Of a stretch of 64,000 nucleotides of DNA, positions 4,865 through 56,471 are shown piece after piece. A program made the position numbers and the translations under genes. Location: assembly GCF_028583425.1 (NCBI RefSeq), contig NC_072793.1:102781689-102845688 (forward strand), written 5' to 3'. The stretch's first letter is position 1. Each line of letters begins with the position of its first letter. The notes beneath the pieces were generated by a model. That model saw only the letters and a list, made by a program, of their open reading frames with translations, had not been told where the DNA came from and ran no database searches. The stretch is from Eublepharis macularius. Lineage: Eukaryota > Chordata > Lepidosauria > Squamata > Eublepharidae.

Positions 4865-7800
4865 TCAGTAGTTCTCAAACTGCCACAGTTTTCCTCCCAC
4901 CTCCCACTTCTTCTCCAGATATTGTTTCAGCTTCTCCCAGTCTGTGTTAAACTGCCCTGAGTCCAGATCTCTCAGTTTTCTTGTCATCTTATCCATTTCA
5001 GCCATATACAGCAATTTGTAGATCCAATCTTCAATAGTTGGCACTTCTTGTACTTTCCATTTCTGCGCATACAAAAGTCTAGCTGCTGCAGTCATATAAA
5101 ATATCAACGTCCTATGATGGGCTGGAATTCCCTCCATTCCCAAGTTTAGCAGCAGGAGTTCTGGGTTCTTATTTATTTGAAACTGTAAAATTTCACTCAT
5201 TTCTCTTATTATTTCCCCCCAGAACTGCCTAGCTACCTCACACGACCACCACATATGATAGAGGGAGCCCTCATGCTTCCTACATTTCCAGCATTTATTA
5301 GAAGTGTTCAAGTTCCCTAGCGCAATCTTCTTTGGTGTCATGTACCAACGATAAATCATTTTGAAAATGTTCTCTTTAATATTAATACATGTCGTTGTCT
5401 TCATTGTAGTTTTCCACAAGTATTCCCATGCCTCCATTGTTATTTCTTTATTAAAGTTTATAGCCCATTTCACCATTTGTGTTTTAACTATCTCATCCTC
5501 GGTATACCATTTCAACAGTACTTGGTATACCTTGGATATTCTTTTCTTGTCTTCTTTAAGAAGGGTCTGCTCTAGTTCCGAGTTCTCTGTTCGTATGCCC
5601 CCTTTTGCAGAATCCGAATTGTATAAGTCTCTAATCTGTCTGTACTGGAACCAATCATAGTTAGGTGATAGTTCCTCTTGCGTCTTTATTCTGAGTTTAG
5701 ATGCTTCAGTTTTAGTTATTTCTTTGTACGTTAAACATTGTTGTTCATTATCAACAGCTCTCGGATCTATCACCTCGTATGGAACCACCCACCAGGGGGT
5801 TCCTTCTTGTAGGTAAATTCTGTACTTCTTCCAGATTGTATATAAACTTCTCCTTACAAAATGATGCAGGAACATCGAGTTGACCTTTACTTTGTCATGC
5901 CATAAGTATGCGTGCCATCCAAAAATTTTTTTATATCCCTCTAGGGCTAATAGTTTCTTATTCTTTAATGTCATCCACTCTTTTAACCAAACTAGGCAGA
6001 TTGCATCATGATAAAGTCTCAGGTTGGGCAGTTGCATTCCGCCTCTTTCCTTTGCATCTTGTAGAACTTTTACTTTCACTCGAGGCTTCTTGCCTGCCCA
6101 AACAAAATCTGATATTTTCCTCTGCCATTTTTCAAATTGTTTAGAGTCTCTGATGATTGGTATTGTCTGTAGCAAAAACATTACTCTTGGTAACACATTC
6201 ATCTTAACTGCTGCAATCCTGCCCAGCCATGACAAATTCAGTCTATTCCATTTGATCAAGTCTCTCTCTATCTGAGTCCATAATTTTTCATAATTGTTCT
6301 TGAACAAATCTATATTTTTTGCAGTCAGCTCAACTCCCAAATATTTCACCTTACTAGTTACTTCACAGTCCGTTATTTCCATTAACAATTGTTGTTTCTG
6401 CTTAGTCATGTTTTTGCATAATATCTTTGACTTCTTTTTATTAATGAAGAAACCTGCCAAGTCACCAAACTCCTTGATCTTATCTATCACTTTTGGCATG
6501 TTCTCCAATGGATCTTCTACAATTAACATTATGTCATCTGCAAATGCTCTAACCTTGTATGAATAGTCCTTTATTTTTATTCCTCGTATTTCCTCATCTT
6601 GTCGTATTTGTATCATCAGAATCTCCAATACTAAAATGAACAACAATGGAGATAACGGGCAACCTTGTCTTGTTCCTTTACTAATCGTCAATTTCTTGGT
6701 CAATTCATCATTCACTACAATTGCTGCAGTCTGGTCTCTATAAATTTCTTTAATTGCTCTGATGAATCTTTCTCCCAGTTGTAGCTTTTCCATAGTGGCA
6801 AACAAAAAATCCCAGTTTAAATTGTCAAACGCTTTTTCAGCGTCTACAAAGAAGAAACCAACCTCTTTATCACAACGCTTGTCATAGTATTCAATAGCAT
6901 TGATCACTGTCCTTAAATTGTCTCTTATTTGTCTGTCCGGCAAAAAGCCTGCTTGTTCTTCCTCTATGACTTCCGAGAGCCACCCCTTCAGTCTCTCCGC
7001 CAATATCTTCGCAAAAATTTTATAATCATTGTTAAGTAATGATATAGGCCTGTAATTTTTCACGTTAGTCAGATCTTGGCCCTCTTTTGGGATCAATGAT
7101 ATATTCGCTTCGCTCCAAGTGTCTGGAATTCTTTGATCCCTGAAAACTCCGTTCATCACCTCTTTTAGGAATGGTGCCAGTTCGTTGGCCATTGTCTTAT
7201 AAAATTTAGCCGTAAGTCCATCTGGCCCTGGCGCCTTTCCTAGATTTGCGGATTGTATTGCCTTACTTATTTCCTCATCAGTTACTTCATTGTTCAACTT
7301 ATTTCTCCAAGCTTCCGAGATCTCTGGAAGTTTGGTTTTCTCCAAATATGATGCTATTGATTCTTTGGTTACTTCTTTTTTATTATACAGCTTAGCATAG
7401 AATTTATAAAAGGCTCTACTAATGGTAGTCTGCTCCAGGTACGTTTTATTTTCTTCACAGATTTTATTTATTATTTTCTTTTCCCTTTTCTTCTTCAATT
7501 GCCATGCCAAATATTTCCCAGGTTTATTAGCACCCTCAAAAGCTTTTTGATTCAGTCTTTTAAGGTTCCACTCCAATTCTTTATTACTCATTGCTGTTAA
7601 CTGTTCTTGAAGAATTTTGATTTCCTGATGTATTTTCTTTTTCCCTGGTCTCTTTTTTAACTGTGCTTCTTTGGCCTTTATTTTCTCCTCAATCTCTTGT
7701 CTTTTCTCCTCTTTCTTTTTCCTTGCTCTGCCATTTAAGTCCATTAGTATGCCCCTTACAACCGCCTTGTACGCGTCCCAAACTTTTCTGGTTGGTACTT

Positions 7801-8626
7801 CTTTATTCACGTTGTATTGTATAAAAAACTTTGTCTCTCTTCCCAATATTTCCATATTCTCACTTTCCTGTAACAAGTCCTCATTTATTCTCCAGGCTTT
7901 CCTTTTTCTCCTTTTTCCAAATTTCCACATAATTGGATTGTGATCTGAGCCTACCATCGGCATTATTTCTACCTCCTTAGTCCATAACGCTAAGTCCTTT
8001 GAGGCCCAGATCATATCAATTCTTGATAATGTAAGATGCCTTGCAGAATAAAAAGTAAACTGTTTGGTTTTAGGATATTCTCTCCTCCATACGTCTTCGA
8101 GAGTCTCTTGTTGAATCAACTCAAAAAAAAGCTTTGGCAATAGTCCTCTTTTCTTTTGTGCTGTTGTAGTCTTTTTGTCTAGTTCCAAATCTGTCACTCC
8201 ATTGAAGTCTCCAGCAAGAATTATCTGGTCATATACAAGATCGTCTAAGTGCTTCCTTAAATCCTCAAAGAAGCTTTCCTTTGCACCGTTAGGTGCATAA
8301 AGTCCGACTACCAACACTCTCTTTAAATTCCAATTACATTCCACTGCTACAAATCTAGCTTCAACATCTCTCATAACAAATTTTGGCTGCAGCTCCTCTT
8401 TTATGTACAACACCACTCCTCTTTTTTTCGTGTTTGAGGCCGCTACAAATTCTTTGCCCAATTTTCCAGATTTTAAATATTTTACATCCTGTTTTCTAAT
8501 ATGGGTCTCCTGCAAACAAACAATATCACATTTTTGTTTTAGTAGCCAATGAAAAATATTTTTCCTCTTATTCGGTGAGTTTAGTCCATTTACATTCCAA
8601 GATAATACTTTACACTCCATATTCAT
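4865..8626 (-). CDS. L1 ORF2 protein: endonuclease and reverse transcriptase
   Basis: This 1253-residue enzyme nicks target DNA and copies L1 RNA at the nick. The N-terminal apurinic-like endonuclease shows SWNVNGLN (residues 9-16), CLQETHI with E40, LAGDFNG with D140 and N142, SRIDMIWAS, and SDHNPI with D228/H229, so the catalytic set appears complete. A lysine-rich linker follows. The reverse transcriptase has KAPGPDGLTAKFY, NYRPISLLN, EEEQAGFLPDRQIRDN, DAEKAFDNLNW, TRQGCPLSPLLF and the catalytic FADD at 695-698 (bases 6533-6544). A C-terminal Cys/His cluster begins CWKC at residue 1112 (pattern CX2CX8HX4C), comparable to the L1 Cys-rich domain. Length is normal for L1 ORF2 (about 1250-1280). 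The start ATG overlaps the ORF1 stop as ATGA, which suggests coupled termination and reinitiation. Confidence 0.95.
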   Translation of the reverse strand: MNMECKVLSWNVNGLNSPNKRKNIFHWLLKQKCDIVCLQETHIRKQDVKYLKSGKLGKEFVAASNTKKRGVVLYIKEELQPKFVMRDVEARFVAVECNWNLKRVLVVGLYAPNGAKESFFEDLRKHLDDLVYDQIILAGDFNGVTDLELDKKTTTAQKKRGLLPKLFFELIQQETLEDVWRREYPKTKQFTFYSARHLTLSRIDMIWASKDLALWTKEVEIMPMVGSDHNPIMWKFGKRRKRKAWRINEDLLQESENMEILGRETKFFIQYNVNKEVPTRKVWDAYKAVVRGILMDLNGRARKKKEEKRQEIEEKIKAKEAQLKKRPGKKKIHQEIKILQEQLTAMSNKELEWNLKRLNQKAFEGANKPGKYLAWQLKKKREKKIINKICEENKTYLEQTTISRAFYKFYAKLYNKKEVTKESIASYLEKTKLPEISEAWRNKLNNEVTDEEISKAIQSANLGKAPGPDGLTAKFYKTMANELAPFLKEVMNGVFRDQRIPDTWSEANISLIPKEGQDLTNVKNYRPISLLNNDYKIFAKILAERLKGWLSEVIEEEQAGFLPDRQIRDNLRTVINAIEYYDKRCDKEVGFFFVDAEKAFDNLNWDFLFATMEKLQLGERFIRAIKEIYRDQTAAIVVNDELTKKLTISKGTRQGCPLSPLLFILVLEILMIQIRQDEEIRGIKIKDYSYKVRAFADDIMLIVEDPLENMPKVIDKIKEFGDLAGFFINKKKSKILCKNMTKQKQQLLMEITDCEVTSKVKYLGVELTAKNIDLFKNNYEKLWTQIERDLIKWNRLNLSWLGRIAAVKMNVLPRVMFLLQTIPIIRDSKQFEKWQRKISDFVWAGKKPRVKVKVLQDAKERGGMQLPNLRLYHDAICLVWLKEWMTLKNKKLLALEGYKKIFGWHAYLWHDKVKVNSMFLHHFVRRSLYTIWKKYRIYLQEGTPWWVVPYEVIDPRAVDNEQQCLTYKEITKTEASKLRIKTQEELSPNYDWFQYRQIRDLYNSDSAKGGIRTENSELEQTLLKEDKKRISKVYQVLLKWYTEDEIVKTQMVKWAINFNKEITMEAWEYLWKTTMKTTTCINIKENIFKMIYRWYMTPKKIALGNLNTSNKCWKCRKHEGSLYHMWWSCEVARQFWGEIIREMSEILQFQINKNPELLLLNLGMEGIPAHHRTLIFYMTAAARLLYAQKWKVQEVPTIEDWIYKLLYMAEMDKMTRKLRDLDSGQFNTDWEKLKQYLEKKWEVGGKLWQFENY

Positions 8627-9405
8627 GGTTTTGTTGGTAAGTCTTTTTCATTGTCCTTGATAAATCTCTCCATCTCCCGCTCAGATCTGATGCGTTTTTT
8701 TGCCCCTCCAAACTCAAAGGACACTCCTTCCGGTAACTCCCATCTATATCTAATATTCATGTCCTTCAAAGTCTGAATTAGCACTCTATATTTTTTCCTG
8801 TCCAGTAACACTGATCTGGGCAGTTCCTTCATTATGATAATCGTCTTGCCATCAATCTCCAATGGATCTTGAAATTGTTTTGTCACAATCCTCTCTTTCA
8901 TGTTTCTAGTTGTAAACTGCACAATCACATCCCTTGGCAGTTTCCTCTGGGTTGCAATTCTCGAGTTCACACGGTACGCCACATCTAGGATAGCCACAAT
9001 TTCCTCCTCCTCCTTCCCCAGGTAATCAGCCAACACCTCAGTCATCTGTTCTTGCGCTGACTTCCCTTCCACCTCTGGCAGGCCACGAAAACGAAGCTGC
9101 TTCTCCATGTGTTTAGTTTCTGCAACTGACATCCTCCCCTTCACCAGTCTCATCTCTGTTTGTTGCGTGTCTATTAAATTCTCCATCGCGTCTTCTACTG
9201 TTTTAACTCTCTGCTGCGTTCCTTGTAATTCACTACTAATCGTTTCCACGCCTTTTTTCACTTCTGACAGCTCCGACTTTACTGTCTGTGTAACTTCTTT
9301 GACCTCTTTAATAAGCTCCAATTTCGTGTCCTTAAGTTCTTTCATCATGTCTATAAGTTTTTTGTCCAAATTTTCTATTGCCGATTGCCACTCTTTTTTC
9401 GACAT
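8623..9405 (-). CDS. L1 ORF1 protein: nucleic-acid chaperone
   Basis: The 260-residue protein binds L1 RNA and forms the ribonucleoprotein particle. Residues 1 to about 100 are rich in K/E heptads (LDKKLIDMMKELKDTKLEL, EVKKGVETISSEL) and look like a trimerising coiled coil. An RRM-like part follows from LRFRGLPE (near 104) through KLPRDVIVQF. The C-terminal domain has MKELPRSVLLDRKKYRVLI, then YRWELPEGVSFEFGGAKKRI. That order matches L1 ORF1p, but the protein is shorter than the human one (338 residues), mainly because the N-terminal segment is short. The frame ends in TGA inside the ATGA overlap with ORF2. No frameshift or stop is seen. Confidence 0.92.
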   Translation of the reverse strand: MSKKEWQSAIENLDKKLIDMMKELKDTKLELIKEVKEVTQTVKSELSEVKKGVETISSELQGTQQRVKTVEDAMENLIDTQQTEMRLVKGRMSVAETKHMEKQLRFRGLPEVEGKSAQEQMTEVLADYLGKEEEEIVAILDVAYRVNSRIATQRKLPRDVIVQFTTRNMKERIVTKQFQDPLEIDGKTIIIMKELPRSVLLDRKKYRVLIQTLKDMNIRYRWELPEGVSFEFGGAKKRIRSEREMERFIKDNEKDLPTKP

Positions 9406-10315
9406 CGTGGGGCTTGCTTTAGCTCGCTCCCACGAATCTGCTCTCTTCCTTAGCTCCGTGGCGTATATTTAAACGTTTTCCTTTTTTTCAAATGTCCCAA
9501 TCTTTGCCAAAATTAATTTTTTTGTATCCAAAATGTCGGGCGTCTTTTCTCTATGGTTTCTCTATGTTATTGTAATCCAAGATGGCCTACTTCCTCTTCC
9601 GCTGAAGCCGCGACCCTTCCCCTTTCAAAAATGGCGATTCCCTACTTCCTGTCCGTCGGCAAGGGCCGCTTCCCTCCAGCCACTCTATTGTTGTTACGCA
9701 CTTCCTGTCTCCCGTCTTCCCACAGCAGGTCTCGCGATGGTGTCTTTTTCCCACAGCTCCAAAACCACAGGTATTCAAAACAATAGTCCGATTCTTGCAA
9801 TAACTTCTTTAAATTTAGTCTCTTTTAAAATACAACTCCTGCCGAGTCTTCACCTCCTTTTCACTAGTCTGTTGCAGTTTAAAAATCTACTTTCTTTCCT
9901 CTCTGTTTTTATCAATCTGTCCCGTTTCAAGAGATAGCGATCTTTACCTTCTCTTCAGCTTTCTCGGGTTGTAATCGCTGTTTCGATCTTAAATTCTCCT
10001 CTCGACTTCCCTCCCCGATCGAAGCTTGGGTATGTAGGTCTTATGCCAGCCGAATTGGCCCCAAAACTGCCGCAGAGATTATAGCCGACCCGTCGCAAGG
10101 TGGGACCTCAAGGATCGGGGGGAGACTCCTTGAGTAGAGCCCCCCCTCGTCCGAGATCTAGCTCACCCTAGGGTCTTGAGCGTTCTTTGCCTGCTCCCCG
10201 CCTGAGAGCAGTCGGCCGCGGGTTATTTTCACCCCTCCGGCCGGTTAAAACGGCAGTCCGGTCAGCTCCGCAAATGGAGCTGCGTTAGACCTCCATGGAT
10301 CCCAAACCGGAAGTC
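9406..10315 (-). promoter_or_regulatory. L1 5' UTR / internal promoter
   Basis: About 910 bp lie between the 5' target duplication and the ORF1 ATG. The outer 300 bp (10020-10315) is GC- and CpG-rich, with blocks such as GGCCGCGGG and CCGGCCGG. The part next to ORF1 is pyrimidine-rich on the plus strand. L1 elements carry an internal RNA polymerase II promoter in the 5' UTR, and the intact length here fits a full-length, potentially transcribed copy. No specific factor site was assigned. Confidence 0.65.
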
Positions 10316-11852: not shown

Positions 11853-12226
11853 TAAACTCTGGTTTACAATTTATTCATATTTAATCTCCTGTTTCTATAA
11901 TGTTTTAATAGTTATTTCTAAAACAAATAATGTTAATACTTTTTCTAGTTTCCAGTTTAGTCTTTTAGAAAATTAAATATATTATATTCGTCAGGGATTT
12001 CAATACTCTGAAACAAAAAATGACATAAAAATCTTGTCCAGAAAGATTTCCACCTACATCAAAACTATCAAAACATACTGTAATGAAAATATCAAAATAA
12101 TAACCTGTTTTGAAAACAATGTTACTTTTTAAAGCCACATGTTCTTAGTAAAATTTTGCAAAACTGAGGAATGTTGCAAGAATTAGAAAATCAACCTGTG
12201 TGTGTGGCTCTAATTTCTTTTAGATT
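11853..12226. other. No gene seen
   Basis: AT-rich sequence between the minisatellite and PLE copy 1. Nothing recognised. Confidence 0.4.
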
Positions 12227-12238
12227 AATGGTAAAATA
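12227..12238. repeat. PLE copy 1 target-site duplication, left
   Basis: AATGGTAAAATA is repeated exactly at 14733-14744 on the far side. This fixes both element borders and shows that the inverted left part and the direct right part arrived together. Confidence 0.85.
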
Positions 12239-12934
12239 TTGTCGAAGGCTTTCACGGCTGGAGAACGATGGTTGTTGTGGGTTTTCCGGGCTGTATTGCC
12301 GTGGTCTTGGCATTGTAGTTCCTGACGTTTCGCCAGCAGCTGTGGCTGGCATCTTCAGAGGTGTAGCACCAAAAGACAGAGATCTCTCAGTGTCACAGTG
12401 TGGAAAAGATGTTGGCAGGTCATTTATATCTACTCAGGAGGGGTGGGGTTGAGCTGAGTCATCCTGTAAGAGTTTCCCAGGGTGTGGAATGCTAATGGCG
12501 GGAAGCTTCACTGTATCCTGAGGAGGTTCTTTTGCATATGGATTGGTGCTTGATGTGCTAATCTTCTCTGCAGGGCTATTGTCGGGTATAGAGTGTTTTG
12601 TTAGCCTGGTGTTTTTCAGAACTGGAAACCATGCTCTGTTCATTCTTTCTTCTTTCCTGTTGAAGTTTTGCTTATGCTTGTGAATTTCAATGGCTTCCCT
12701 GTGCAGTCTGACAAAGTAGTTGGAAGTGTTGTCCAGTATTTTGGTGTCCTGGAATAAGATACTGTGCCCTGTTTGAGTTAGGCTATGTTCAGCCACTGCT
12801 GATTTTTCCGGTTGTCCAAGTCTGCAGTGTCTTTCATGTTCTTTTATTCTTGTCTGGATGCTACGCTTTGTGGTCCCGATGTAAACTTGTCCACAGCTGC
12901 AGGGTATACGGTATACTTCTGCAGAGGTGAGGGG
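12239..12934 (-). repeat. Inverted copy of the PLE 3' terminal region
   Basis: The reverse complement of this block matches the right end of the same element, including the C-terminal coding part with the GIY-YIG motif, the 3' non-coding part, and the hammerhead-like motif. The two arms, about 690 bp each, are nearly identical by eye. They would form a very large hairpin in a transcript or single strand. Confidence 0.88.
12324..12358 (-). ncRNA. Hammerhead-ribozyme-like motif in PLE left inverted end
   Basis: On the minus strand the core CTGAAGA (12358-12352) leads into a stem II formed by GCCAGC and GCTGGC, then GAAA and CGTC ending at 12324. The order CUGANGA, stem II, GAAA, then GUC before the cut site is that of a hammerhead ribozyme. 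Stem III has no loop: AC and GU are adjacent, so it could form only between two molecules through the palindrome ACGU. Published work reports hammerhead motifs in PLE terminal repeats, which supports the reading. Activity is not shown. Confidence 0.55.
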
Positions 12935-13078
12935 AATTCATAGAATTCGTTATCCCATTGGAATTCCTCACTACATCCCGACACACACAGAAAACTATGC
13001 AAGACAGAAGCACAGCCACCTAGACTATATGGACTCCCTAAAATACATAAGGATTCGGTCCCACTCTGACCCATTGTG

Positions 13079-14566
13079 AGTGCCATTGGTTCACCGACAT
13101 ATGAATTAGCTAGACATCTGGCAGATCTCCTGCAGGACCACATCGGGAAAACCTCATCTTACATCAAAGATTCAGCAGATTTCACCAACAAAATCAGTTC
13201 TCTGAAACTCAATCCACAAGACATACTTGTCAGTTTTGATGTTGTATCCCTGTTTACCAAGGTTCCAGTAAAAGACACTATTGCACTTATTAATCAGATT
13301 TTCCCAGAGGATGTAACAGCCTTATTCCATCATTGTCTGACGACCAGTTACTTCCAATGGGATAACGAATTCTATGAATAGATGGATGGGGTGGCCATGG
13401 GGAGCCCTCTCAGCCCAGTTATAGCAAACTTCTACATGGAACATTTTGAAAAAACAGCTCTAGAATCAGCACCCCACAAACCTAGTGTATGGTTCCGGTT
13501 TGTGGATGATACATTTATCATTTGGAGCCATGGGGAGGAAGAATTGATGGGGGTTTTGAATCATCTCAACAACATCTACCTGAACATACAATTCACAATG
13601 GAGAAAGAAATGGAGGGAAAACTCCCATTCCTGGATACCTTGGTCATCCGCAAAGCAAACTTTCAGTTAGGTCACAAGGTCTACAGAAAAACAAATCACA
13701 CTGATCGGTACTTACACAAAAACTCCAATCACCACCCCCGACAGAAAAGAGGCATAATGAAAACATTAGTGGATCGTGCAAGACGGATATGTGAGCCGCA
13801 CTTTCTCAATGAGGAAATTAATCATCTAAACCACGCACTTCAGGCAAATGGCTACTCCAGAAATGAAATCCGACGAGCAATCAAACCCAGGATGAATCAA
13901 ACAACCAAGGAAAAACAGTCTCCTACAGGAAAAGTGTTTTTGCCATATATCAAAGGAATTACTGATCAGATGGGAAAGCTTATGAAAAAGCATAACCTTC
14001 AAGCAATATTCAGACCCACCCGAAAAATACAACAGATGCTACGATCAGCAAAAGACAGTAGAGACCCCCTCACCTCTGCAGGAGTATACCGTATACCCTG
14101 CAGCTGTGGACAAGTTTACATCGGGACCACAAAACGTAGCATCCAGACAAGAATAAAAGAACATGAAAGACACTGCAGACTTGGACAACCTGAAAAATCA
14201 GCAGTGGCTGAACATAGCCTAACGCAAACAGGGCACAGTATCTTATTCCAGGACACCAAAATACTGGACAACACTTCCAGCTACTTTGTCAGACTGCACA
14301 GGGAAGCCATTGAAATTCACAAGCATAAGCAAAACTTCAACAGGAAAGAAGAAAGAATGAACAGAGCATGGTTTCCAGTTCTGAAAAACACCAGGCTAAC
14401 AAAACACTCTATACCTGACAATAGCCCTGCAGAGAAGATTAGCACATCAAGCACCAATCCATATGCAAAAGAACCTCCTCAGGATACAGTGAAGCTTCCC
14501 GCCATTAGCATTCCACACCCTGGGAAACTCTTACAGGATGACTCAACCCAACCCTACCCCTCCTGA
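13079..14566 (+). pseudogene. PLE reverse transcriptase / GIY-YIG protein, broken copy
   Basis: The translated pieces carry PLE RT blocks: SAIGSPTYELARHLA, LVSFDVVSLFTKVP, then GVAMGSPLSPVIANFYMEHFE, RFVDDTFIIW with the catalytic VDD, and GKLPFLDTLVIRK. A C-terminal GIY-YIG nuclease follows, with AGVYRIPCSCGQVYIGTTKR and the helix RIKEHERHC. The N-terminal part present in copy 2 is mostly missing, and the reading frame is interrupted, so this copy is not expected to make a full protein. Family membership is clear from the RT plus GIY-YIG combination, which is unique to PLEs. Confidence 0.88.
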
Positions 14567-14641
14567 GTAGATATAAATGACCTGCCAACATCTTTTCCAC
14601 ACTGTGACACTGAGAGATCTCTGTCTTTTGGTGCTACACCT

Positions 14642-14676
14642 CTGAAGATGCCAGCCACAGCTGCTGGCGAAATGTC
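14642..14676 (+). ncRNA. Hammerhead-ribozyme-like motif at PLE copy 1 right end, altered core
   Basis: Core CTGAAGA (14642-14648), then stem II GCCAGC (14650-14655) with GCTGGC (14663-14668), then GAAA (14669-14672) and TGTC (14673-14676). Compared with the other two copies, the C after GAAA is T. This changes the ACGU palindrome proposed for stem III and probably weakens it. It looks like CpG decay. Confidence 0.5.
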
Positions 14677-14732
14677 AGGAACTACAATGCCAAGACCACG
14701 GCAATACAGCCCGGAAAACCCACAGCAACCAT

Positions 14733-14744
14733 AATGGTAAAATA
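14733..14744. repeat. PLE copy 1 target-site duplication, right
   Basis: Second copy of AATGGTAAAATA, matching 12227-12238 exactly and directly following the PLE 3' tip. Confidence 0.85.
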
Positions 14745-22146: not shown

Positions 22147-24860
22147 ATCTGAGTGTTGTGGAATCATGATTCCTAGTGTTCCGCAGACTTAAACCTCCCC
22201 CTGAGCTCATAGACGAGGCACATAATAATCAGAGCCTAAGAAATGGAGAACACACTACAAGTTGCTATGGAGATGCTAGTGGAAGTGGTTAATCTTCCCT
22301 GGTTATAACATGGAGACAGGGCATGAAGACTCATAATGTGATGCCCCTGGCACATGCAAATGTTACATGTCTGGTTTTGTTTTTCCAGAAGTAGGAAGTG
22401 TTGGGGCAGTGAGGGGAGACAGTGACTCAGAATTAGCAACAGAAGTGGATCTTTTGGTTTTGTTTCCCTAGGCAGGAGCAGCTGGGGCTGTGAAGAGAGG
22501 GCGGCAGGGAGAGAGTCAGCATCAGCAAACTAGCAACTTACAGGGACATCTTTCAACTTGAAGAGTTCCATCCAAATAGGATTGTCCCTATTTGTGTGAA
22601 TACATAGTGAGTCAGTTTTCTGGGATGGATCCAGAAATCTGTCAGCAGGGCCGCCTTAGAGCGGGACCACAAGTGACGCCTGACACAGGTTGGACACTTG
22701 CCAGCTTCCCTCAAGTTTTGATGGGAAATGTAGGCAGCTTGGCGGAATGTTGGACAAGTGACAGTTGAAAAGTCCATTGGACAGCAGTCAGAGAGTCAAG
22801 TTGCAAGACCAGGAAACCGGTCAACAGGAAACCGAGGCAGCTACCCCAGGCTTTTTGCTTGGGAGGGTACCAACTGCCCACAGCCACGCACCCTCAAGTG
22901 CAGGAAGGGGAGGGGGAGAATGAAAGCGTGCTTTTGACATTGTTTGCACCTGCCCCAATGTGGGACTTGGGCAGCTGACTTCTGGCACAGCAGCTGCTCC
23001 CATCTACCTTGTATGGGGTGAAGACTACTCCATGGGAGGGGCAATTATTCTGGGGCCCCATTCTGTACTTTTCCCCAGGACACCAGAACCACTAAGAACA
23101 CCCCAGTCTGTTGGTGCAAGGAATGCAGATCTTTGACACATTCCGCTCCCCCAACCGTCTCTTCCAACTGCAGGAAAGTGGAGTCCTGTGGTCACAGGAC
23201 CTGCAGGGAATAATAGTAATGCTGCAGATCTGCAGCACGTACATGCAGCCCCCAGCCTACATGGCTATTAGTCCACATGAGTCCCGTGATCCAAGAATCA
23301 ACTTTCCTGGCATTGGAAGGGACTGCTGGAGGAAATGAAAAAAATCTGCACTCAGTGTGCCTTCTGCTGATGGACTACTGATTCCAAGCTCTGTTTTTGG
23401 CAGACGTTGCTTCATTTCACTAACGTGGAGAGGGCTTCCAGATTCTATGTAACCATGGGCCCTGCTTTCCTGGGCTGTTCAGTTAGCAGGGGCTATATGC
23501 ATTAGCCTAGGCAGGCAGAAGCAACACTTCATTTGTATCTACAGTAAATAAGGGAAGATGTGGGATAATGACATTGAGCTTGAATGTCCCTCACAATAGG
23601 AAGGCGGCAGCAGCAGCCATCCCACATGCCTCACAGAGGACAAGGGAAACTCTTGATTTATATGAGTTGCCAGCTCCACCCCCACCCCCACCTACACATC
23701 CCTCACTCCCAGCCTGAAGGCATGTACTGTGTATGTAACACTGTGAGCAAGTCCCAGCCCCTGCGAGGCAAGCCCAGGGCACGGGGAGCAATCACCATGT
23801 TTTGTGCCTCATGATGACTCTTGCATCAACAACCTGGCATTAATACAGTAATGATCTTGTAGAAAATACAACTTTCAAGGAAGTTTTTTGGCAGGCGAAA
23901 ACTGAGGAAGGTGAGTTGTGCAACAGAATGAAGCAATCAAACTACACCAGGCTGGAAGGCAAAGATGCCTCTCGCCGTATTATCCTTTACATGGTGTGCA
24001 ATCACTGACCATTAATGTAATCTGATGACTGAATGCTCTGTAACAGCAGAAAATCTCTGATTCAAAACTTCCTATTGTCCCAAAGTTCCCACCAAATATA
24101 TTACTCAGCATCATAACTTCTGTGTTGTAACTCTGTCTTATAATTCACTCAATAAACTTCCCACATCACTTCCCTTCCTCAGTAGTCCTATCACGTACCC
24201 TACTAGTTGTATAGTTTTCTCCTGATAAGCTGCCCAACTCCCAAGTTACTCCTTTCAATCTTTCGTTTTCTGAAAACAATGTTATTCTATGGGCTCCAAA
24301 AGACTATAACTAGCCTGGCTTGAAGGCCAATAATTTGAGTTTGATTCCTGGCTCCAACTGGACGGTATCCCGGACTCCCAATGCACTGGATCTCTCCTTC
24401 TTCCACCCTGATTTCTATGCAGGCTAGAAAAGGTATTTCTTTGCTGCCCATCTTATCTATCTCCACCTATATTCCAACCACGCTGCATCACACTGAGAGA
24501 TGGCATTTTGCTTCTCTCTGCTATTTAAGGTCTCAGATCAGGTGGACCAGGCAAAGTACTCACTTCTCTGTCTTGTTCTCCATTTCCCTCACATTAATAC
24601 TGCTAACTTAAATGTAACTTCTGTTCCAAATTGGAGTAGCCCTGGTTAATTTCTGGCTGTTGTGACATTGTAGGGATGTGCTATTTATTTGAGCTTTGAT
24701 TTTTAGTATTGCTAGTATTTGCTTAGGATAAGTTTGCCCCTCCCTAATATTGTACTAAATCCCTCAATAAATATCAAATCCCTCCATAAGTTCCATATTT
24801 CTTTTTCAACCTTTAAACATAGCCTCTGTCATCCTTTTTCTATTCATAGCTACCTCTTAA
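22147..24860. other. No gene seen
   Basis: About 2.7 kb. The part near 22660-22860 (GTTTTGATGGGAAATGTAGG, GTGACAGTTGAAAAGTCCAT) looks like an old interspersed repeat that I cannot name. Nothing else recognised. Confidence 0.35.
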
Positions 24861-24929
24861 GAGTTTTCCCTCACTTTCTTTCTCCATTGTGAATTGTATG
24901 TTCAGGTGGATGTTGTTGAGATGATTCAA
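24861..24929 (-). repeat. 69-bp inverted internal segment at PLE 5' end
   Basis: Matches the reverse complement of 25649-25717 at 69 of 69 positions. An internal RT segment placed backwards at the 5' end suggests fold-back or template switching at the end of reverse transcription, or twin priming. The absence of mismatches means it formed at or near insertion. Confidence 0.9.
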
Positions 24930-24937
24930 CAGTGATC

Positions 24938-26665
24938 ATGAAAACGGAGGAATACAAAAAGAAGATTAAGGAACTCCTGGACCCCTCCACCTACAAAAAA
25001 CTAAAACGAGATCCCACTTGCAAAATCACCAGGCTAACAAATGCGCTGATCAAGAATTCCTCACTACATCCCGACACGCACAGAAAACTATGCAAGACTG
25101 AAGCACAGCCACCTAGACTATATGGACTCCCCAAAATACATAAAGATTCAGTCCCACTCCGACCCATTGTGAGTGCCATTGGTTCACCGACATATGAATT
25201 AGCTAGACATCTGGCAGATCTCCTGCAGGACCACATCGGGAAAACCTCGTCTTACATCAAAGATTCAGCAGATTTCATCAGCAAAATCAGTTCTCTGAAA
25301 CTCAATCCACAAGACATACTTGTCAGTTTTGATGTTGTATCCCTGTTTACCAAGGTTCCAGTAAAAGACACTATTGCACTGATTAATCAGATTTTCCCAG
25401 AGGATGTAACAGCCTTATTCCATCATTGTCTGACAACCAGTTACTTCCAATGGGACAACGAATTCTATGAACAGATGGATGGGGTGGCCATGGGGAGCCC
25501 ACTCAGCCCAGTTATAGCAAACTTCTACATGGAACATTTTGAAAAAACAGCTCTAGAATCAGCACCCCACAAACCCAGTGTATGGTTCCGGTTTGTGGAT
25601 GATACATTCATCATTTGGAGCCATGGGGAGGAAGAATTGAGGGAGTTTTTGAATCATCTCAACAACATCCACCTGAACATACAATTCACAATGGAGAAAG
25701 AAAGTGAGGGAAAACTCTCATTCCTGGATACCTTGGTCATCCGCAAAGCAAACTTTCAGTTAGGTCACAAGGTCTACAGGAAACCAACTCACACTGATCG
25801 GTACTTACACAAAAACTCCAATCACCACCCCCGACAGAAAAGAGGCATAATGAAAACATTAGTGGATCGTGCAAGACGGATATGTGAGCCGCGCTTTCTC
25901 AATGAGGAAATTAATCATCTAAACCACGCACTTCAGGCAAATGGCTACTCCAGAAATGAAATCCGAAGAGCAATCAAACCCAGGATGAATCAAACAACCA
26001 AGGAAAAACAGTCACCTACAGGAAAAGTGTTTTTGCCATATATCAAAGGAATTACTGATCAGATGGGAAAGCTTATGGAAAAGCATAACCTTCAAGCAGT
26101 ATTCAGACCCACCCGAAAAATACAACAGATGCTACGATCAGCAAAAGACAGCAGAGACCCCCTCACCTCTGCAGGAGTATACCGTATACCCTGCAGCTGT
26201 GGACAAGTTTACATCGGGACCACAAAGCGTAGCATCCAGACAAGAATAAAAGAACATGAAAGACACTGCAGACTTGGACAGCCTGAAAAATCAGCAGTGG
26301 CTGAACATAGCCTAACTCAAACAGGGCACAGTATCTTATTCCAGGACACCAAAATACTGGACAACACTTCCAACTACTTTGTCAGACTGCACAGGGAAGC
26401 CATTGAAATTCACAAGCATAAGCAAAACTTCAACAGGAAAGAAGAAACCTTAAGAATGAACAGAGCATGGGCTCCAGTTCTGAAAAACACCAGGCCAACA
26501 AAACACTCCACACCCGACAATAGCCCTGCAGAGAAGATTAGCACATCAAGCACCAATCCATATGCAAAAGAACCTCCTCAGGTTACAGTGAAGCCTCCCG
26601 CCATTAGCATTCCACACCCTGGGAAACTCTTACAGAATGACTCAGCTCAACCCCACCCCTCCTGA
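24938..26665 (+). CDS. PLE reverse transcriptase / GIY-YIG endonuclease, N-terminally truncated
   Basis: A frame of about 575 codons from the first ATG (the frame is open a little further upstream). The RT region begins with the PLE signature PPRLYGLPKIHKDSVPLRPI, then SAIGSPTYELARHLADLL, DILVSFDVVSLFTKVPV, MDGVAMGSPLSPVIANFY, WFRFVDDTFIIWSHGEEEL with the catalytic aspartates, and KLSFLDTLVIRK. A basic connector follows (RRAIKPRMNQTTKEKQ, PYIKGITDQM). The GIY-YIG nuclease has AGVYRIPCSCGQVYIGTTKR, TRIKEHERHC and AVAEHSLTQTGH. The C-terminus is low complexity. In PLEs the nuclease nicks target DNA and the RT primes from the nick. The copy lacks the usual N-terminal domain and is probably not autonomous, although its frame is uninterrupted. 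Confidence 0.88.
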   Translation: MKTEEYKKKIKELLDPSTYKKLKRDPTCKITRLTNALIKNSSLHPDTHRKLCKTEAQPPRLYGLPKIHKDSVPLRPIVSAIGSPTYELARHLADLLQDHIGKTSSYIKDSADFISKISSLKLNPQDILVSFDVVSLFTKVPVKDTIALINQIFPEDVTALFHHCLTTSYFQWDNEFYEQMDGVAMGSPLSPVIANFYMEHFEKTALESAPHKPSVWFRFVDDTFIIWSHGEEELREFLNHLNNIHLNIQFTMEKESEGKLSFLDTLVIRKANFQLGHKVYRKPTHTDRYLHKNSNHHPRQKRGIMKTLVDRARRICEPRFLNEEINHLNHALQANGYSRNEIRRAIKPRMNQTTKEKQSPTGKVFLPYIKGITDQMGKLMEKHNLQAVFRPTRKIQQMLRSAKDSRDPLTSAGVYRIPCSCGQVYIGTTKRSIQTRIKEHERHCRLGQPEKSAVAEHSLTQTGHSILFQDTKILDNTSNYFVRLHREAIEIHKHKQNFNRKEETLRMNRAWAPVLKNTRPTKHSTPDNSPAEKISTSSTNPYAKEPPQVTVKPPAISIPHPGKLLQNDSAQPHPS

Positions 26666-26736
26666 GTAGATACAAATGACCTACATCTTTTCCACACTGT
26701 GACACTGAGAGATCTCTGTCTTTTGGTGCTACACCT

Positions 26737-26771
26737 CTGAAGATGCCAGCCACAGCTGCTGGCGAAACGTC
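26737..26771 (+). ncRNA. Hammerhead-ribozyme-like motif at PLE copy 2 3' end
   Basis: Core CTGAAGA (26737-26743); stem II GCCAGC (26745-26750) with GCTGGC (26758-26763) around the loop CACAGCT; GAAA (26764-26767); CGTC (26768-26771), after which cleavage would fall. Stem I could start from CCT before the core and AGG after the cut. Stem III would be A-C/G-U with no loop, so a single molecule cannot close it, but two molecules could pair over ACGU. Minimal stem III hammerheads that act as dimers are known in PLEs and related retroelements. Confidence 0.6.
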
Positions 26772-26877
26772 AGGAACTACAATGCCAAGACCACGGCAAT
26801 ACAGCCCGGAAAACCCCCAACAACCAATATCTAGATTGATGAACTCTACAGCAGAAGGAGCAAGAAGGAGAGAAGAG

Positions 26878-26882
<5 letters not shown>

Positions 26883-26941
<59 letters not shown>
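26883..26941. repeat. (GT)n(GA)n microsatellite
   Basis: About 26 bp of GT is followed by about 32 bp of GA with one switch point, just downstream of the PLE 3' end. Confidence 0.95.
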
Positions 26942-34140: not shown

Positions 34141-34764
34141 AAGCGGACTGAGAAAGCTATGCGGCGTCCCCTTTAAGGCTGGCCTACCCGCCCAGTTCGC
34201 TCCCGCCTAGGCCCCGCCTCCTCGAGCGCGACGCGCCGATCGGCTGGCGAAGCCCCTTTTTAATTGAGGCTGTCAGGCAGAGCCCGCGATGAAGCGAGTG
34301 GGAGGGCGCGGCGGCCGGAGCAGAAGCGTCAGTAACTGGAGCAAGTAGCTGCTACCTTTCCCGGGGAGGGGAGAAGAGAGGCGAAGGAGCCGCCAGCCTT
34401 GCGATCTCGCAGCGAGCGCCCTCCTCCCGGAGGTGGGGAGAAGAGCCGCGCCGGCCTCTGCCTGCTTCTCTCCCCCTCTCCGCGCCTTTGGCTCCTGCAA
34501 GTGGAAGGAAGCGTCTTTGCAGCAAGCGGGAGGAGACAGAGGAGGAGGACGCCGATCTGCTCAGCCTTTGGGATCGCTCAGCGCCGCTAGCCCCCGTTGC
34601 ATCACCCGGATCGCTTTTTAATTTTTAAAATACCGACGCGTTATTTTTTGCGCCATTTCTGCGGTTCAGCGAAGGCGGTGGGCATTTTCTCCCAGCAGCA
34701 GCGCTTGGCTTTCCGTGCGCGATCCCCTCGCACCCCCCCTTGGCCTCCTCCCGTTGCGATCCTG
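34141..34764 (+). promoter_or_regulatory. DUSP7: DUSP7 core promoter and 5' UTR
   Basis: GC boxes ACCCGCCC (near 34187) and CCCCGCC (34212-34218) lie in dense CpG sequence, followed by a TATA-like TTTTTAATTGA at 34257-34267. Transcription could therefore begin near 34285-34300, giving a 5' UTR of about 470 bp. An in-frame TAG at 34588-34590 precedes the start codon and no in-frame ATG lies between them, which supports translation from 34765. ERK-pathway phosphatase genes are typically induced by growth factors; no specific ETS or CRE site was assigned here. Confidence 0.6.
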
Positions 34765-35179
34765 ATGAAAAATCACATCTGGGGCAGCTCTCCCTGGGCT
34801 CCCATGGCTGCGGCGATGCCGTGGAAGAGCGTGGAGTGGCTGCAGGAGGAGCTGGAGACCAGCGGGGGCAGCTCGCTGCTGCTGCTCGACTGTCGCCCCC
34901 ACGAGCTGTTCGAGTCGTCGCACATCGAGACCGCCATCAACTTGGCCATCCCGGGCCTGATGCTCCGGCGCCTCAAGAAGGGCAACCTGCCCATCCGCTC
35001 CATCATCCCCAACAACGAGGACAAGGAGCGCTTCGTCAAGCGCTGCAAGGCGGACACGGTGCTGCTGTACGACGAGGCCACGGCCGAGTGGCAGCAGGAC
35101 GCGGGCGCCCCGACCTCCGTCCTCGGTCTCCTGCTGCAGAAGCTGCGCGACGACGGCTGCAAGGCCTTTTACCTGAAAG
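34765..35179 (+). CDS. DUSP7: DUSP7 exon 1: rhodanese/MAPK-binding half
   Basis: First coding exon of dual-specificity phosphatase 7, a cytoplasmic enzyme that removes phosphate from Thr and Tyr of activated ERK1/2. It starts [14 protein letters not shown], equivalent to the MKN start of mammalian DUSP7, and continues [12 protein letters not shown]. The rhodanese-like block includes [20 protein letters not shown] (about residues 37-56). The kinase-interaction arginines follow in [15 protein letters not shown] (R68, R69 and K71-K72). The exon ends [39 protein letters not shown] and SIIPN separate it from DUSP6 and DUSP9. The whole protein is 383 residues against about 419 in human, because the low-complexity N-terminus is short. 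The exon ends in phase 1 at AAAG|GTAAGC. Confidence 0.95.
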
Positions 35180-38100
35180 GTAAGCGGCGTGGGGGGGAGG
35201 ACCGCCCGCCCGGAGAGCCGGCCGCAGGATTCAGACACCCCTTTCCCCGACGGACAGCAGCAGATCGCGGGTCTTCGGCTCCCAGGCAGAGCCACTGGCT
35301 CGATTCCCGCCTAAGGTCTTCCTCCCGCCCTTCCTCTAGATCTGTAACTGCCCCCCCCCGTCCCCCTCCGCCGGCGGCTTCAGGGATCCCTTTCCGCCGC
35401 CATGCGGGCCAGATCCCCGAATCGGAGCGCTTTCTCCCCCCACTTCCTGCGCATCCATTTTCCGGTGTGTTTGTGTGTGGGGGGGCTATGGACTGCTCCT
35501 TCTAAGAAATAACCCCCCCCCATTTAAAAGGGGTATTTTCGACGTCTAAAACGCACAAGCAGGGCTCCCAAGGGGGATTATGGGGTTTGTTTGCTTTTGC
35601 CGGAGGATTATGCACTTCCCTTAATCTCCCGCTGTTGGTGTTGCCCTGTATGCCCGCGCGTGTTTTAAGGTGGAATGGTTCCATGTGCTGAGACGTTTGA
35701 CCACTGAGCTTTGGCTCTCCCCTTGCATTTTTTCCCCTTGGCCGAAAGGGGAAATTTTCCCTTGCCCTGTAAATTGTGTGGGAGGCATTATTCCCTCCTA
35801 CTTCCTTTCTTCCAGAAAAAGGAGGTCTATTCTTGTCAGATTCCTCCCTATCCGCCAATGGAGAATTGTCAGAATATAAAAAAGTATCCCTTCTGCAGTC
35901 TGGTCTGTGAGAGTTCTGTATTCGTTTCTGGCTGGCATCTCTGGCTGTATCCAATTTGTTACCACCAACCTTCAAAGAGGATCTCTGGACAACTGCCTGT
36001 TTCTGCCCCCACTCCTGTGATTACCCCCTTAATAGGATTTTGGGGAAGGGGGGAGGATGGAAGGGGAAGCCATCTAAAGCCTGGTCCACGGCCATAGCTG
36101 CATCCATTGTGGCCCACTTGCCCCACATTCATTCTTACTACATATGTTGCTGCCTGGAAGCAGGATGGGAATATAGATCCTTTGGGGCTTGTCTGTCATC
36201 CTTAAAACCCCAATCCTGTTGGTAACTAGTCTGCAGATCCAGGTGCTTGGGTAGACCTTGAGAGATTGGCATCTGGCTGGCCTTGCCTTTGGCTAAGAGG
36301 TTGTGCTAGATGACCTCTCTGGTCCATTCTGATTCTGTGATTCCTTTCAGATCTCTGAATGAAATGCATTTGAATGGAGGTCTTAATTGATTAAATTCAG
36401 AGCTGCAATGGTTTTCTTTCAAAGGGCATTGCTGTGAGTGAGGATCCTAGGAGAGCAAAGATAAGACTTGCTCTCCTCACACACACCAACCGCTCTGGTC
36501 ACTGGGTGGCAGGGTTGAGACAGAAATAGCAGACAACAGAGAATCAAAAGGATCCCTTTCAATAAAATCTTTAAAAAAAAAAACCACCATGGGATTTCCG
36601 TAGTGGAGGGAGGAGCAAGGGTTTTGATCAGTGTATGGGGTGGAGAGGAAGGATCAAATTGTTCCTATCTAGGATCTTTTCTTGTCTACTATTGACTTTT
36701 TAGTAGTTGTATTAAAGCTACCCTATTAGTTTCTTGAGTGATTCTTGACTGAGTGTACTGTCCAGCTTTTTCATTCTTCGGTTTATTTTTTTTTTACTAC
36801 TTGTAAAGTGTAGCATTTAACCTTAATTTCATAGTTAATCTCTCTAACTCTCCCCTCCCTCCCCCTGCAGTTGATAAATTATATGTAACAGAAGAAAAAA
36901 GGCGTTAAAGCTGCTGCTTTTCTCTCCCTTCTCTTTTCTGGGGCCTCAGTGGGAAATGTTTCCAATTAAAATTCCAAAATGGCTTCTCTATATTGTCTTT
37001 CTCTTTGAGGAGAGAAAAAAAGGGAACCTGTTTTTTTCTTCATGAATGGATATGGCAGGGGCTGTGTACTCTGTTCAGTGACCTTACTGCAACTATGCCA
37101 TTCTTCTTAAATTTCCAGGCGATTTTTATAATAGCAGTGTTTATCAGATTTAGATAATGATGGTTAAATGCCCATTAATGTACATTAAGGCAAAAGTAAA
37201 TTTCACTTTTTCTAATTGCTAAATCAAATGAGCCATCAAAAATGAATAATTAGGAGGGGGAATTGTTTCTATTGTTGGTTGCATGTCAGCAAAGCCTTGA
37301 ATTTGCTTAACCTTAAAGCAGATGCCTCCCCAAACAGACAGGCTTTTCAAAAAAAGCTGGCAGTTGTGATCTTGTAGCTAATATAGTCCAGTACTTAAAG
37401 ATTCTGATTCTACAATTGGATCTTCAGTTGTCCCATTCTGTTATCCTGCTCTCCAGAATTATGTTGTCTTACTGCCCAGCATGTGTTATCTCTGCAAGTA
37501 GCTCAAATATATTTATCTGTGAGATTCTTTGAAGTGTTTAGTTCTTTTCAGGATACCTGTTGCCCTCTCAAGTGCCAAACCGATCCTCACTCAGCAGTTT
37601 CCCTTTCTGAAATGTGGCAGTGGCTTTTGCCAGTTATATGTCTGTTACCGGCACAGACACCCTGCTAGGAAGAAATAAAAGATAGCCATGTCTCACTATC
37701 AGTATTTTTCTCAAATTAAGCTTGTATAACATGTCAAGTCTGTGACTATGGGGTCTTGTTTCAGAAGCAGGTAATCAAACCATCTCACTCAGCACTGAAG
37801 CCTCCAGTGCTGAGTGAGATGGTAAATTGTCTCTGGGCTATATCACTTCAGCTTGTGGGGTAGTGGTGATACTGTATATTGTACGATCAAAGGTTTCTCT
37901 GTACCCCAAATTCGATATACTTAGAAAACTAAATAATGAGGTGAAAGGTTCTAGCCACTTCTTCTTCTTCTTGAAATGCTAACCTTATTTTTTTGTATGG
38001 AGGAACATTCAGTGAAGTAAGCCTCTATCTGCAGTTTGAAGTAGTGCAGCCCAGACTGGGGTTTACCACATTGGGTGGGAACTAGACCTGAGTGGGACAG

Positions 38101-38526
38101 AAAGAAGGGGGAGTCCTGCAGTGCAGACTGAGTGTGATCAATATCATCAACATTCACTTGAAGTTCTTTCTTTATTGGCACTGCTGAGTTTGCCAACTTT
38201 TGCTCTTCTGCCTTTAACAATATTTTATCATCTGCAGAGCAATGGTTATCTTCATGCTGTAAAAGGCATGACCCAGCAAGAGACACCTATCAAGCCACCG
38301 TTCAAAGGGCAATAGTAGGGTAGACCTGTGTTTTGGGTCAGTTGGCAACCTAAACTGCTGTTGAAGAGGAAACATGAAAGAAAGGGGTCTTAAGGGAAAA
38401 AATTCACCCCACTGATTCTGTCAGTCTTATTGAAAATGTGAAGTTCCCTTGGTAATAAGCATTTAGTTATTTGTAGCATTCAAATAAATTCATGACAGTA
38501 AAGGTATTTTCTATTTGCTTTCATAG
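35180..38526 (+). other. DUSP7: DUSP7 intron 1
   Basis: A 3.3-kb GT-AG intron (GTAAGC ... TTTCATAG). The first 300 bp still belong to the CpG island. A probable CR1 3' tail (GTGCTAGATGACCTCTCTGG then ATTCTGTGATTC) lies near 36305-36350, and a perfect short hairpin lies at 37779-37823. No alternative exon was recognised. Confidence 0.85.
37779..37823. repeat. Perfect 19-bp hairpin in DUSP7 intron 1
   Basis: ACCATCTCACTCAGCACTG (37779-37797), a 7-base loop, and its exact reverse complement (37805-37823). Arms are 19 of 19. It is shorter than a normal microRNA precursor, and the flanks do not extend the pairing. It could be an isolated fold-back footprint, a recent inverted duplication, or an RNA structure in the intron. 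Confidence 0.85.
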
Positions 38527-38955
38527 GTGGATTCAACAAGTTTCAGACAGAATTCTCAGAGCATTGTGAAACCAGTCTTGACACTTCTTCTCCCACCAAC
38601 TCTCCTCCTTCATCGGTTCTTGGTCTGGGCGGGCTGAGGATAAGCTCTGATTGTTCCGATGGGGAATCTGATCGGGAACCAAGCAGTGCCACAGAATCCG
38701 ATGGGAGCCCCATCCCAAACAACCAGCCTGCCTTCCCTGTCCAGATTCTCCCTTATTTGTATCTGGGCTGTGCCAAAGATTCCAGCAACCTGGATGTCTT
38801 GGGCAAGTATGGCATCAAGTACATCCTGAATGTTACTCCCAACCTTCCCAACATGTTTGAGCACGACGGAGAATTCAAGTACAAACAGATTCCCATCTCG
38901 GATCACTGGAGTCAGAATCTCTCCCAATTCTTTCCTGAGGCCATCGCTTTCATTG
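38527..38955 (+). CDS. DUSP7: DUSP7 exon 2: linker and start of the phosphatase domain
   Basis: Residues 139-281. After [18 protein letters not shown] comes a Ser/Pro-rich linker ([11 protein letters not shown]) and [19 protein letters not shown], the same arrangement as in other DUSP7 proteins. The dual-specificity domain begins [20 protein letters not shown], with [10 protein letters not shown] and [19 protein letters not shown]264 of SDHW is the expected general acid. It is bounded by TTTCATAG| and |GTAGGT splice sites. The codon phase (1) is preserved at both ends, so the exon is a multiple of three. Confidence 0.96.
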
Positions 38956-39904
38956 GTAGGTGTTGGACATCCTGTTCTTGACGGAACAGCCCCTTTAGCA
39001 ATCAGTAATTTTCCATAACTAGTCTAGAGACTTCTGTAACTGTTCCTTCCATCTACCTTTGGTGAATTAATGTGTCCAGTTTTACACCTCCCAACTCTGG
39101 TACCTACTGAATGTGCCAGCAGTGGGCAATCAGGTGTAACCAGATTGGCCTATACATCAGATGATTTAATTGGAACAAAGATCACATCCAATAATCCCTC
39201 TGGGGATTCGCTGCACGTGGTAGATCTAGAGATAGGATTGTGTATGGTCATTGGTTTTGGTTACATCTGCTATGCATTATGGATGTATTTCCCTTTTATA
39301 TTTGCAGTAAAAATAAGCTAAGCGTCAGAATCTTAACTTTTGATTCACAGATTACTTTAGTTGGTGCTTAGATAGCCTGTTGTGTAATTGGCATAAGGAA
39401 TCTGCCTATATGACCTTGTTCCTCCTAAACCACTATCCCAATATATTATATAAGTTTTAACTATGGAAGTAGTGTCCAATTGGTTCTCTGGAGAGGCATC
39501 ATATACATTTTCTAAATAAAATTGTGAGACAGTATACTTGTCTGTGATTTAGGAAGTGGGTAAAGCTGTCATTTCAAATGTTCTTCCTCCAGACAACCGT
39601 TTCAACATTGATTTGTCTGGCAGGGAACTCCTTAGTATCTGCTGTGGTCCCCTTGTCTGATGCTAAAGATTCTGGGTCATATTCATACAATTGATGTGGG
39701 ACACTGACCAGGTCTTTGGGGCCTAACCATCATCTTGTGTCAACTGAGAGTATGACCACACATCAGGTCTTCACCTATAGCTGCAAATAGCAGTAGAAGA
39801 TCTGTGTTAGGCAGCAAGCTCTTTTGCTGGGAAGATTATCTACTATTACTGATCTTCTCATTAAGAAAACACAGGATTTTCTAGAACAGTTTGAAAAGTG
39901 TGTG

Positions 39905-56280: not shown

Positions 56281-56471
56281 CACATGAAGCTTCCTTAGAC
56301 CGAATCAGACCATCAAGGTCAGTATTGTCTACTTAGACTGGCTGCCCAAAGTCTCAGCCAGAGGTCTTTCACACCATCTACTACCTGGCCTTTTTCACTG
56401 GAGATACCAAGGACTGAATTGGGGACTTTCTGCATGCCAAGCAGATGCTCTACCACTGAGCCATGGCTGTT
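56281..56471 (-). mobile_element. tRNA-derived SINE, second family, antisense
   Basis: On the minus strand GCCATGGCTCAGTGGTAGAG is a good box A. GCATCTGCTTGGCATGCAGA follows, and a decayed box B (CAATTCAGTCC). The body GTGTGAAAGACCTCTGGCTG, GTCTAAGTAGACAATACTG and GTCTGATTCGGTCTAAG ends near GAAGCTTCATGTGTTC. The head differs from the SINEs at 40637 and 52001, so it is a distinct family. The tRNA-like fold is lost in the 3' half, so it is not a tRNA gene. Confidence 0.75.

Follow-up and report, generated by a model that had tools for sequence, protein, structure and literature searches.

The stretch analysed here, 64,000 nucleotides (nt) of the Eublepharis macularius genome (contig NC_072793.1, forward-strand positions 102,781,689 to 102,845,688; "the window" below), contains two insertions, A and B, of a Penelope-like element (PLE). 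A short motif lies near the ends of these insertions, once in B and twice in A, and very probably represents a minimal type I hammerhead ribozyme of a Poseidon/Penelope-type PLE that overlaps the start of the element's open reading frame (ORF) and would cleave the element's transcripts. The placement of the element in the Penelope/Poseidon clade is putative. Motifs of this kind are in the literature, the nearest one, from a lizard, being identical in geometry, and in this sense the motif is already known. Any role of the ribozyme in transposition is hypothetical.

The hammerhead motif and its copies

The three copies of the motif, including stem I, are located as follows.

26734..26774, plus strand: minimal type I hammerhead motif, copy B (sequence, strict scan, simulation and stem pairs checked)
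12321..12361, minus strand: hammerhead motif in the left inverted arm of insertion A; core to cut 12358-12324, ATG 12352-12350
14639..14679, plus strand: hammerhead motif in the right arm of insertion A; core to cut 14642-14676, C14673T in stem III, changing ACGU to AUGU

Copy B begins with one side of a stem I of three base pairs (bp; CCU/AGG, 26734-26736 with 26772-26774), followed by the core CUGAAGA (26737-26743) and an unpaired extra U at 26744, which separates A9 from stem II. Stem II consists of six Watson-Crick pairs (26745-26750/26758-26763) closed by a loop of 7 nt (26751-26757). Next come G12 A13 A14 (26764-26766) and a stem III of 2 bp with zero loop, formed by A26767-U26770 and C26768-G26769 (A15.1 C15.2 G16.2 U16.1). 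C17 is 26771, and the predicted cut lies directly after it; hammerhead cleavage 3' of H17 leaves a 2',3'-cyclic phosphate and a 5'-OH. In the customary hammerhead numbering used here, C3 U4 G5 A6 N7 G8 A9, G12 A13 A14, A15.1-U16.1 and H17 are all present and in order. Stems I and II flank the core as in type I hammerheads, while stem III is open and loopless, so that the motif can be filed only with the minimal PLE hammerheads, whose core with stem II, reduced helix III and location in the pseudo-long terminal repeat (pLTR) or at the ORF start it shares. A second stem I segment was seen only in the constrained fold. The first-pass annotation had reported CUGAAGA, a 6-bp stem II, GAAA and CGUC in hammerhead order, which the motif search and the strict scan bear out; its description was right as far as it went but left out the extra U and the 3-bp stem I.

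The string CTGAAGA-T-GCCAGC-CACAGCT-GCTGGC-GAAA-CGTC is identical at 26737-26771 (plus strand) and 12324-12358 (minus strand), and the third site, 14642-14676 (plus strand), differs by the single change C14673T (GAAACGTC to GAAATGTC). The recurrence that had been noted earlier is therefore real and limited to exactly three sites: a search of both strands of the window with at most three mismatches recovers these and no others, and the same search found none in 100 shuffles. A scan under strict rules (CTGANGA, 0-1 nt, 4 bp or more in stem II, GAAA, a loopless 2-bp stem III and H17) again returned only these three sites, against 0.017 matches per sequence in 300 first-order Markov simulations of 64 kb; when 5 bp or more in stem II and 3 bp or more in stem I were demanded, none of the 300 simulations gave a match. 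The core pattern without stems, by comparison, occurs 24 times in the window against 7.8 expected and is too common to count as evidence on its own. The full motif is genuine and lies far beyond what chance would yield. Its three sites are copies of one element and hence count as one origin, not three.

Position of the motif in the element

Two parts of the PLE ORF are preserved in insertion B.

24920..26665 (stop included), plus strand: PLE ORF, 5'-truncated, 581 codons between stops, reverse transcriptase RVT_1
26743..26826, plus strand: start of the PLE ORF at the 3' end of insertion B, ATG 26743-26745, frame MPATAAGETSGTTMPRPRQYSPENPQQP; similarity ends at 26826

The ORF at 24920-26665 encodes a reverse transcriptase (RT), as its RVT_1 match (E 8.1e-13) indicates; RT matches among solved structures are weak, the best having an E-value of 4.7e-05. 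A GIY-YIG-like motif, CGQVYIG, is visible towards the C-terminus, where the Pfam match to T5orf172, a member of the GIY-YIG clan, is likewise weak (E 0.73), so that a GIY-YIG endonuclease domain is only a candidate. The hammerhead motif starts 72 nt past the last base of this ORF, which agrees with the earlier annotation of a hammerhead-like motif with a degenerate stem III associated with a PLE. In searches against viral_contigs and genome_contigs, the PLE protein gave 9 and 28 pattern matches, respectively, none of which was confirmed as a relative, and the motif pattern had no match in viral_contigs.

The start codon of the PLE ORF lies within the motif: C3 to G8 of the core precede the ATG, and codons 1-10 contain stem II, GAAA and the cut site. 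In all three copies, the frame MPATAAGETSGTTMPRPRQYSPENPQQP is open to the end of the PLE sequence (reading GEMSG in the 14642 copy), the predicted cut lies 26 nt past the ATG (26746-26771 in copy B), and the insertion ends shortly inside the ORF, at about 84, 84 and 114 nt. The motif had first been placed at the PLE 3' end, which is true of the end of the insertion; with respect to the element, it covers the ORF start codon, as in a published Anolis element.

That element is PAc, the Poseidon of Anolis carolinensis. It forms tandem units in which the ORF starts at hammerhead stem II and the cut falls 26 nt past the start codon (PMC11167929). PAc and the window element are alike in their Penelope/Poseidon clade, putative for the latter, in a hammerhead laid over the ORF start and in the distance from ATG to predicted cut. 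The PAc hammerhead cleaved when the PLE protein was added and did not cleave without it (PMC11167929). Reverse transcription of PAc starts in a stem loop 111-118 nt into the ORF, and the interval between its two start sites is equated with the optional 30-40 bp "tail" of such elements (PMC11167929). The RT start at 111-118 nt in PAc compares with insertion ends at about +84 and +114 in the window.

A working model can be proposed on these grounds. The motif would cut tandem PLE transcripts to unit lengths, 26 nt past each ATG. Reverse transcription would start inside the ORF start of the next tandem RNA unit, and it is for this reason that genomic copies would carry the motif at their 3' end. 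With a stem III of 2 bp and no loop, the motif is expected to function poorly as a lone RNA. To be active it would require either a second sense copy, the two being paired through ACGU, or binding of the PLE protein shortly downstream.

An extra nucleotide after A9 is probably common among the minimal type I hammerheads found in PLEs. Such hammerheads were reportedly described by Cervera and de la Pena in 2014 and by Lunse, Weinberg and Breaker in 2017. PLE hammerheads without helix III form a described group (PMC6155905, PMC7761336), and cleavage as a dimer has been proposed for the minimal ones (PMC7761336). The window motif resembles them in its location in the PLE pLTR region, in its missing or reduced helix III and in the dimer cleavage proposed. 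Cleavage through a dimer, as suggested in the earlier annotation, is accordingly in line with the literature, but the protein offers another route in the Anolis relative. Hammerheads of amphibian retrozymes and newt satellite DNA are also of type I with a weak stem III and cleave better as dimers (PMC7229834); the window motif differs from the retrozyme hammerheads in lying in a coding PLE and in having a stem III without a loop. The extra nucleotide after A9 has a parallel in the plus-strand hammerhead of chrysanthemum chlorotic mottle viroid (PMC3705267), where the unpaired base is A instead of U and the host RNA is unrelated. A literature search joining Poseidon, Penelope and the term squamate turned up no paper. 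For PLE hammerheads, a reduced stem III, an overlap with the ORF start and, as a proposal, action as a dimer have all been published, and the ribozyme itself adds little; of more use are the silence of the Rfam models on this form of hammerhead and the inability of a head-to-head arrangement to supply a dimer.

Insertions A and B

The two insertions and their parts are as follows.

12239..14731, no strand: insertion A, head-to-head PLE; left arm 12239-12934 (minus), right arm 12961-14731 (plus)
12936-12963, no strand: filler of insertion A, 28 nt inverted, reverse complement of 13352-13379
12226..12238, no strand: target site duplication (TSD), left copy, 13 bp TAATGGTAAAATA, outside insertion A
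14732..14744, no strand: TSD, right copy, 13 bp TAATGGTAAAATA, outside insertion A
about 24860 to 26826: insertion B, with its end at about +84
24860..24929, minus strand: inverted internal PLE segment of 70 nt at the 5' junction of B, reverse complement of 25649-25718 (100%)

The arms of insertion A are inverted over 667 nt and 98% complementary. Counted from the ORF start, the left arm ends at about +114 and the right arm at about +84, 30 nt apart, and a 13-bp TSD flanks the whole; among 19,708 random pairs of window stretches, 2 shared a run of at least 13. Insertion A thereby combines the features expected of a PLE insertion, namely an end shortly inside the ORF, a tail of about 30 bp, an inverted pLTR and a TSD. 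In insertion B, no TSD of at least 7 bp was found. An inverted segment is borne by both insertions in the window. A (GT)n(GA)n microsatellite at 26883-26941 starts 57 nt past the end of insertion B.

The orientation of the copies restricts the dimer route. Neither of the two insertions contains a tandem pair of sense motifs. In insertion A, the motifs lie on opposite strands, so that a transcript would contain one sense and one antisense copy within the 667-nt inverted arms. Such a transcript cannot join two ribozymes into a dimer in cis, for which tandem copies or two RNAs are needed. The dimer had been thought to come from tandem or head-to-head ends, of which the tandem source stands and the head-to-head source does not.

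It is, in our judgement, evenly balanced whether insertion A records a reverse transcription for which both strands of a single staggered DNA break served as primers. Each 3' end with its 13-nt overhang, now the TSD, would have primed its own cDNA, with start points near +114 and +84, and these cDNAs would then have been joined head to head via the 28-nt filler. The PAc protein cuts and extends both DNA strands in vitro (PMC11167929). Because the two ends differ, unlike those of a mirror copy of one cDNA, and because the PAc protein uses both strands, two-strand priming fits better, an argument drawn from one insertion only. It depends on the outermost 29 nt of the left arm (12239-12267), which occur only once in the window. 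Three features led us to count them as PLE sequence: the open frame continues through them, their length equals that of a tail, and the TSD adjoins them on the outer side. Were this stretch filler instead, both sides would have the same end point, and the case for two-strand priming would lose strength. With insertion B as outgroup, the right arm has 9 private differences and the left arm 2, a count that is too few to decide and leans towards two source RNAs.

Comparable structures have been described in Adineta vaga, where Penelope insertions show an inverted pLTR, a "tail" and a short TSD, and where self-priming on an antisense RNA template was proposed (PMC3846280). They share with insertion A the head-to-head inverted end, the optional one-sided tail of about 31 bp and the short target duplication; in contrast to the self-priming account, the unequal ends of insertion A suggest that RT started separately on each side. 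PLE copies with inverted pLTRs and 3' extensions are mentioned elsewhere as well (PMC8969392). A literature search on head-to-head PLEs with target-primed reverse transcription turned up no paper. Insertion A provides sequence-level evidence on the mode of PLE insertion; if two-strand priming were true, head-to-head PLE copies would generally arise in that way and not by self-priming on antisense RNA.

Weighing the probable ribozyme against other explanations

Several observations weigh against an active ribozyme. The Rfam hammerhead models, with which scoring had been suggested, gave a negative result: at the gathering score over the whole window, they did not report the motif, and they found no match in 26500-26900, which holds only the copy at 26737, at E up to 10. 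The extra U after A9 departs from the consensus hammerhead core. As the motif lies within an ORF, its conservation may stem from coding; stem II is protein-coding too, which makes its conservation alone weak evidence. The three copies are nearly identical, and the sole difference within the motif, C14673T, weakens stem III. For the ACGU-paired dimer, a predicted energy of -41.3 kcal/mol compares with -53.5 kcal/mol for the unconstrained two-strand optimum, placing the dimer 12 kcal/mol above it. In Anolis, RNA-seq data showed no read ends at the PAc cut site (PMC11167929).

Some of these points would be accounted for if the motif were the relic of an ancestral ribozyme, kept mainly as coding sequence for MPATAAGETSG with an RT start downstream, the present copies being unable to cleave. 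The overlap with coding sequence and the missing RNA ends at the Anolis cut site fit this explanation, as does the copy, one of three, whose stem III change also alters the protein (GETS to GEMS). PAc catalytic mutants, moreover, showed normal insertion in vitro (PMC11167929). Against a relic, core, stem II and stem I are intact in all three copies, and the Anolis ribozyme does cleave once PLE protein is added, so that we consider it unlikely. A chance likeness of a stem-loop near the element end to a hammerhead is strongly disfavoured and hardly credible: the silence of the Rfam models and the abundance of the stemless core pattern speak for it, but the strict pattern is confined to three homologous sites, was never matched in simulations with the longer stems, and occupies the same PLE position as a ribozyme that has been tested.

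Folding predictions, whose energy models leave out tertiary contacts and protein, bear on a further explanation. For a lone RNA of 86 nt, the hammerhead-constrained fold has -18.6 kcal/mol against an optimum of -23.5 kcal/mol and makes up about 0.02% of the ensemble. That the lone RNA is predicted to fold otherwise is in keeping with the protein dependence reported for the Anolis element. In the predicted optimum of the 79-nt and 86-nt copy B RNAs, CUGA of the core (26737-26740) pairs with UCAG (26770-26773), forming a hairpin that recurs when copies B and A-right are folded in contexts of 159 and 160 nt. This pairing could be read as a self-inhibited switch that the PLE protein or a second copy would open. 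The longer 192-nt A-left context, however, folds differently, and a comparison of all 64 stem I sequences of 3 bp puts the natural one in 42nd place by its gap to the hammerhead fold (5.1 kcal/mol, median 4.6 kcal/mol) and in 19th place among the 24 of equal G+C. Special self-inhibition by the natural stem I failed its control with this rank and was rejected, and the switch is very improbable as a whole. A minimal PLE hammerhead that would cleave with the help of protein or of a second sense copy is still the reading that we prefer.

Other features of the window

An L1-like retrotransposon occupies 4865-9468 on the minus strand. It has a long open ORF2 of 1260 codons with RVT_1 and Exo_endo_phos domains and is possibly young. 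The adjoining ORF of 281 codons, which looks like an ORF1, had no match to an L1 ORF1 model. On the plus strand, an ORF at 34591-35505 encodes a rhodanese domain and another at 38502-38981 a dual-specificity phosphatase domain; judging from this domain order, the two ORFs (34591-38981) are probably exons of one mitogen-activated protein (MAP) kinase phosphatase gene. A tRNA-like Rfam match at 56406-56464 on the minus strand (29.4 bits against a threshold of 29) is possibly a tRNA-derived short interspersed nuclear element (SINE).
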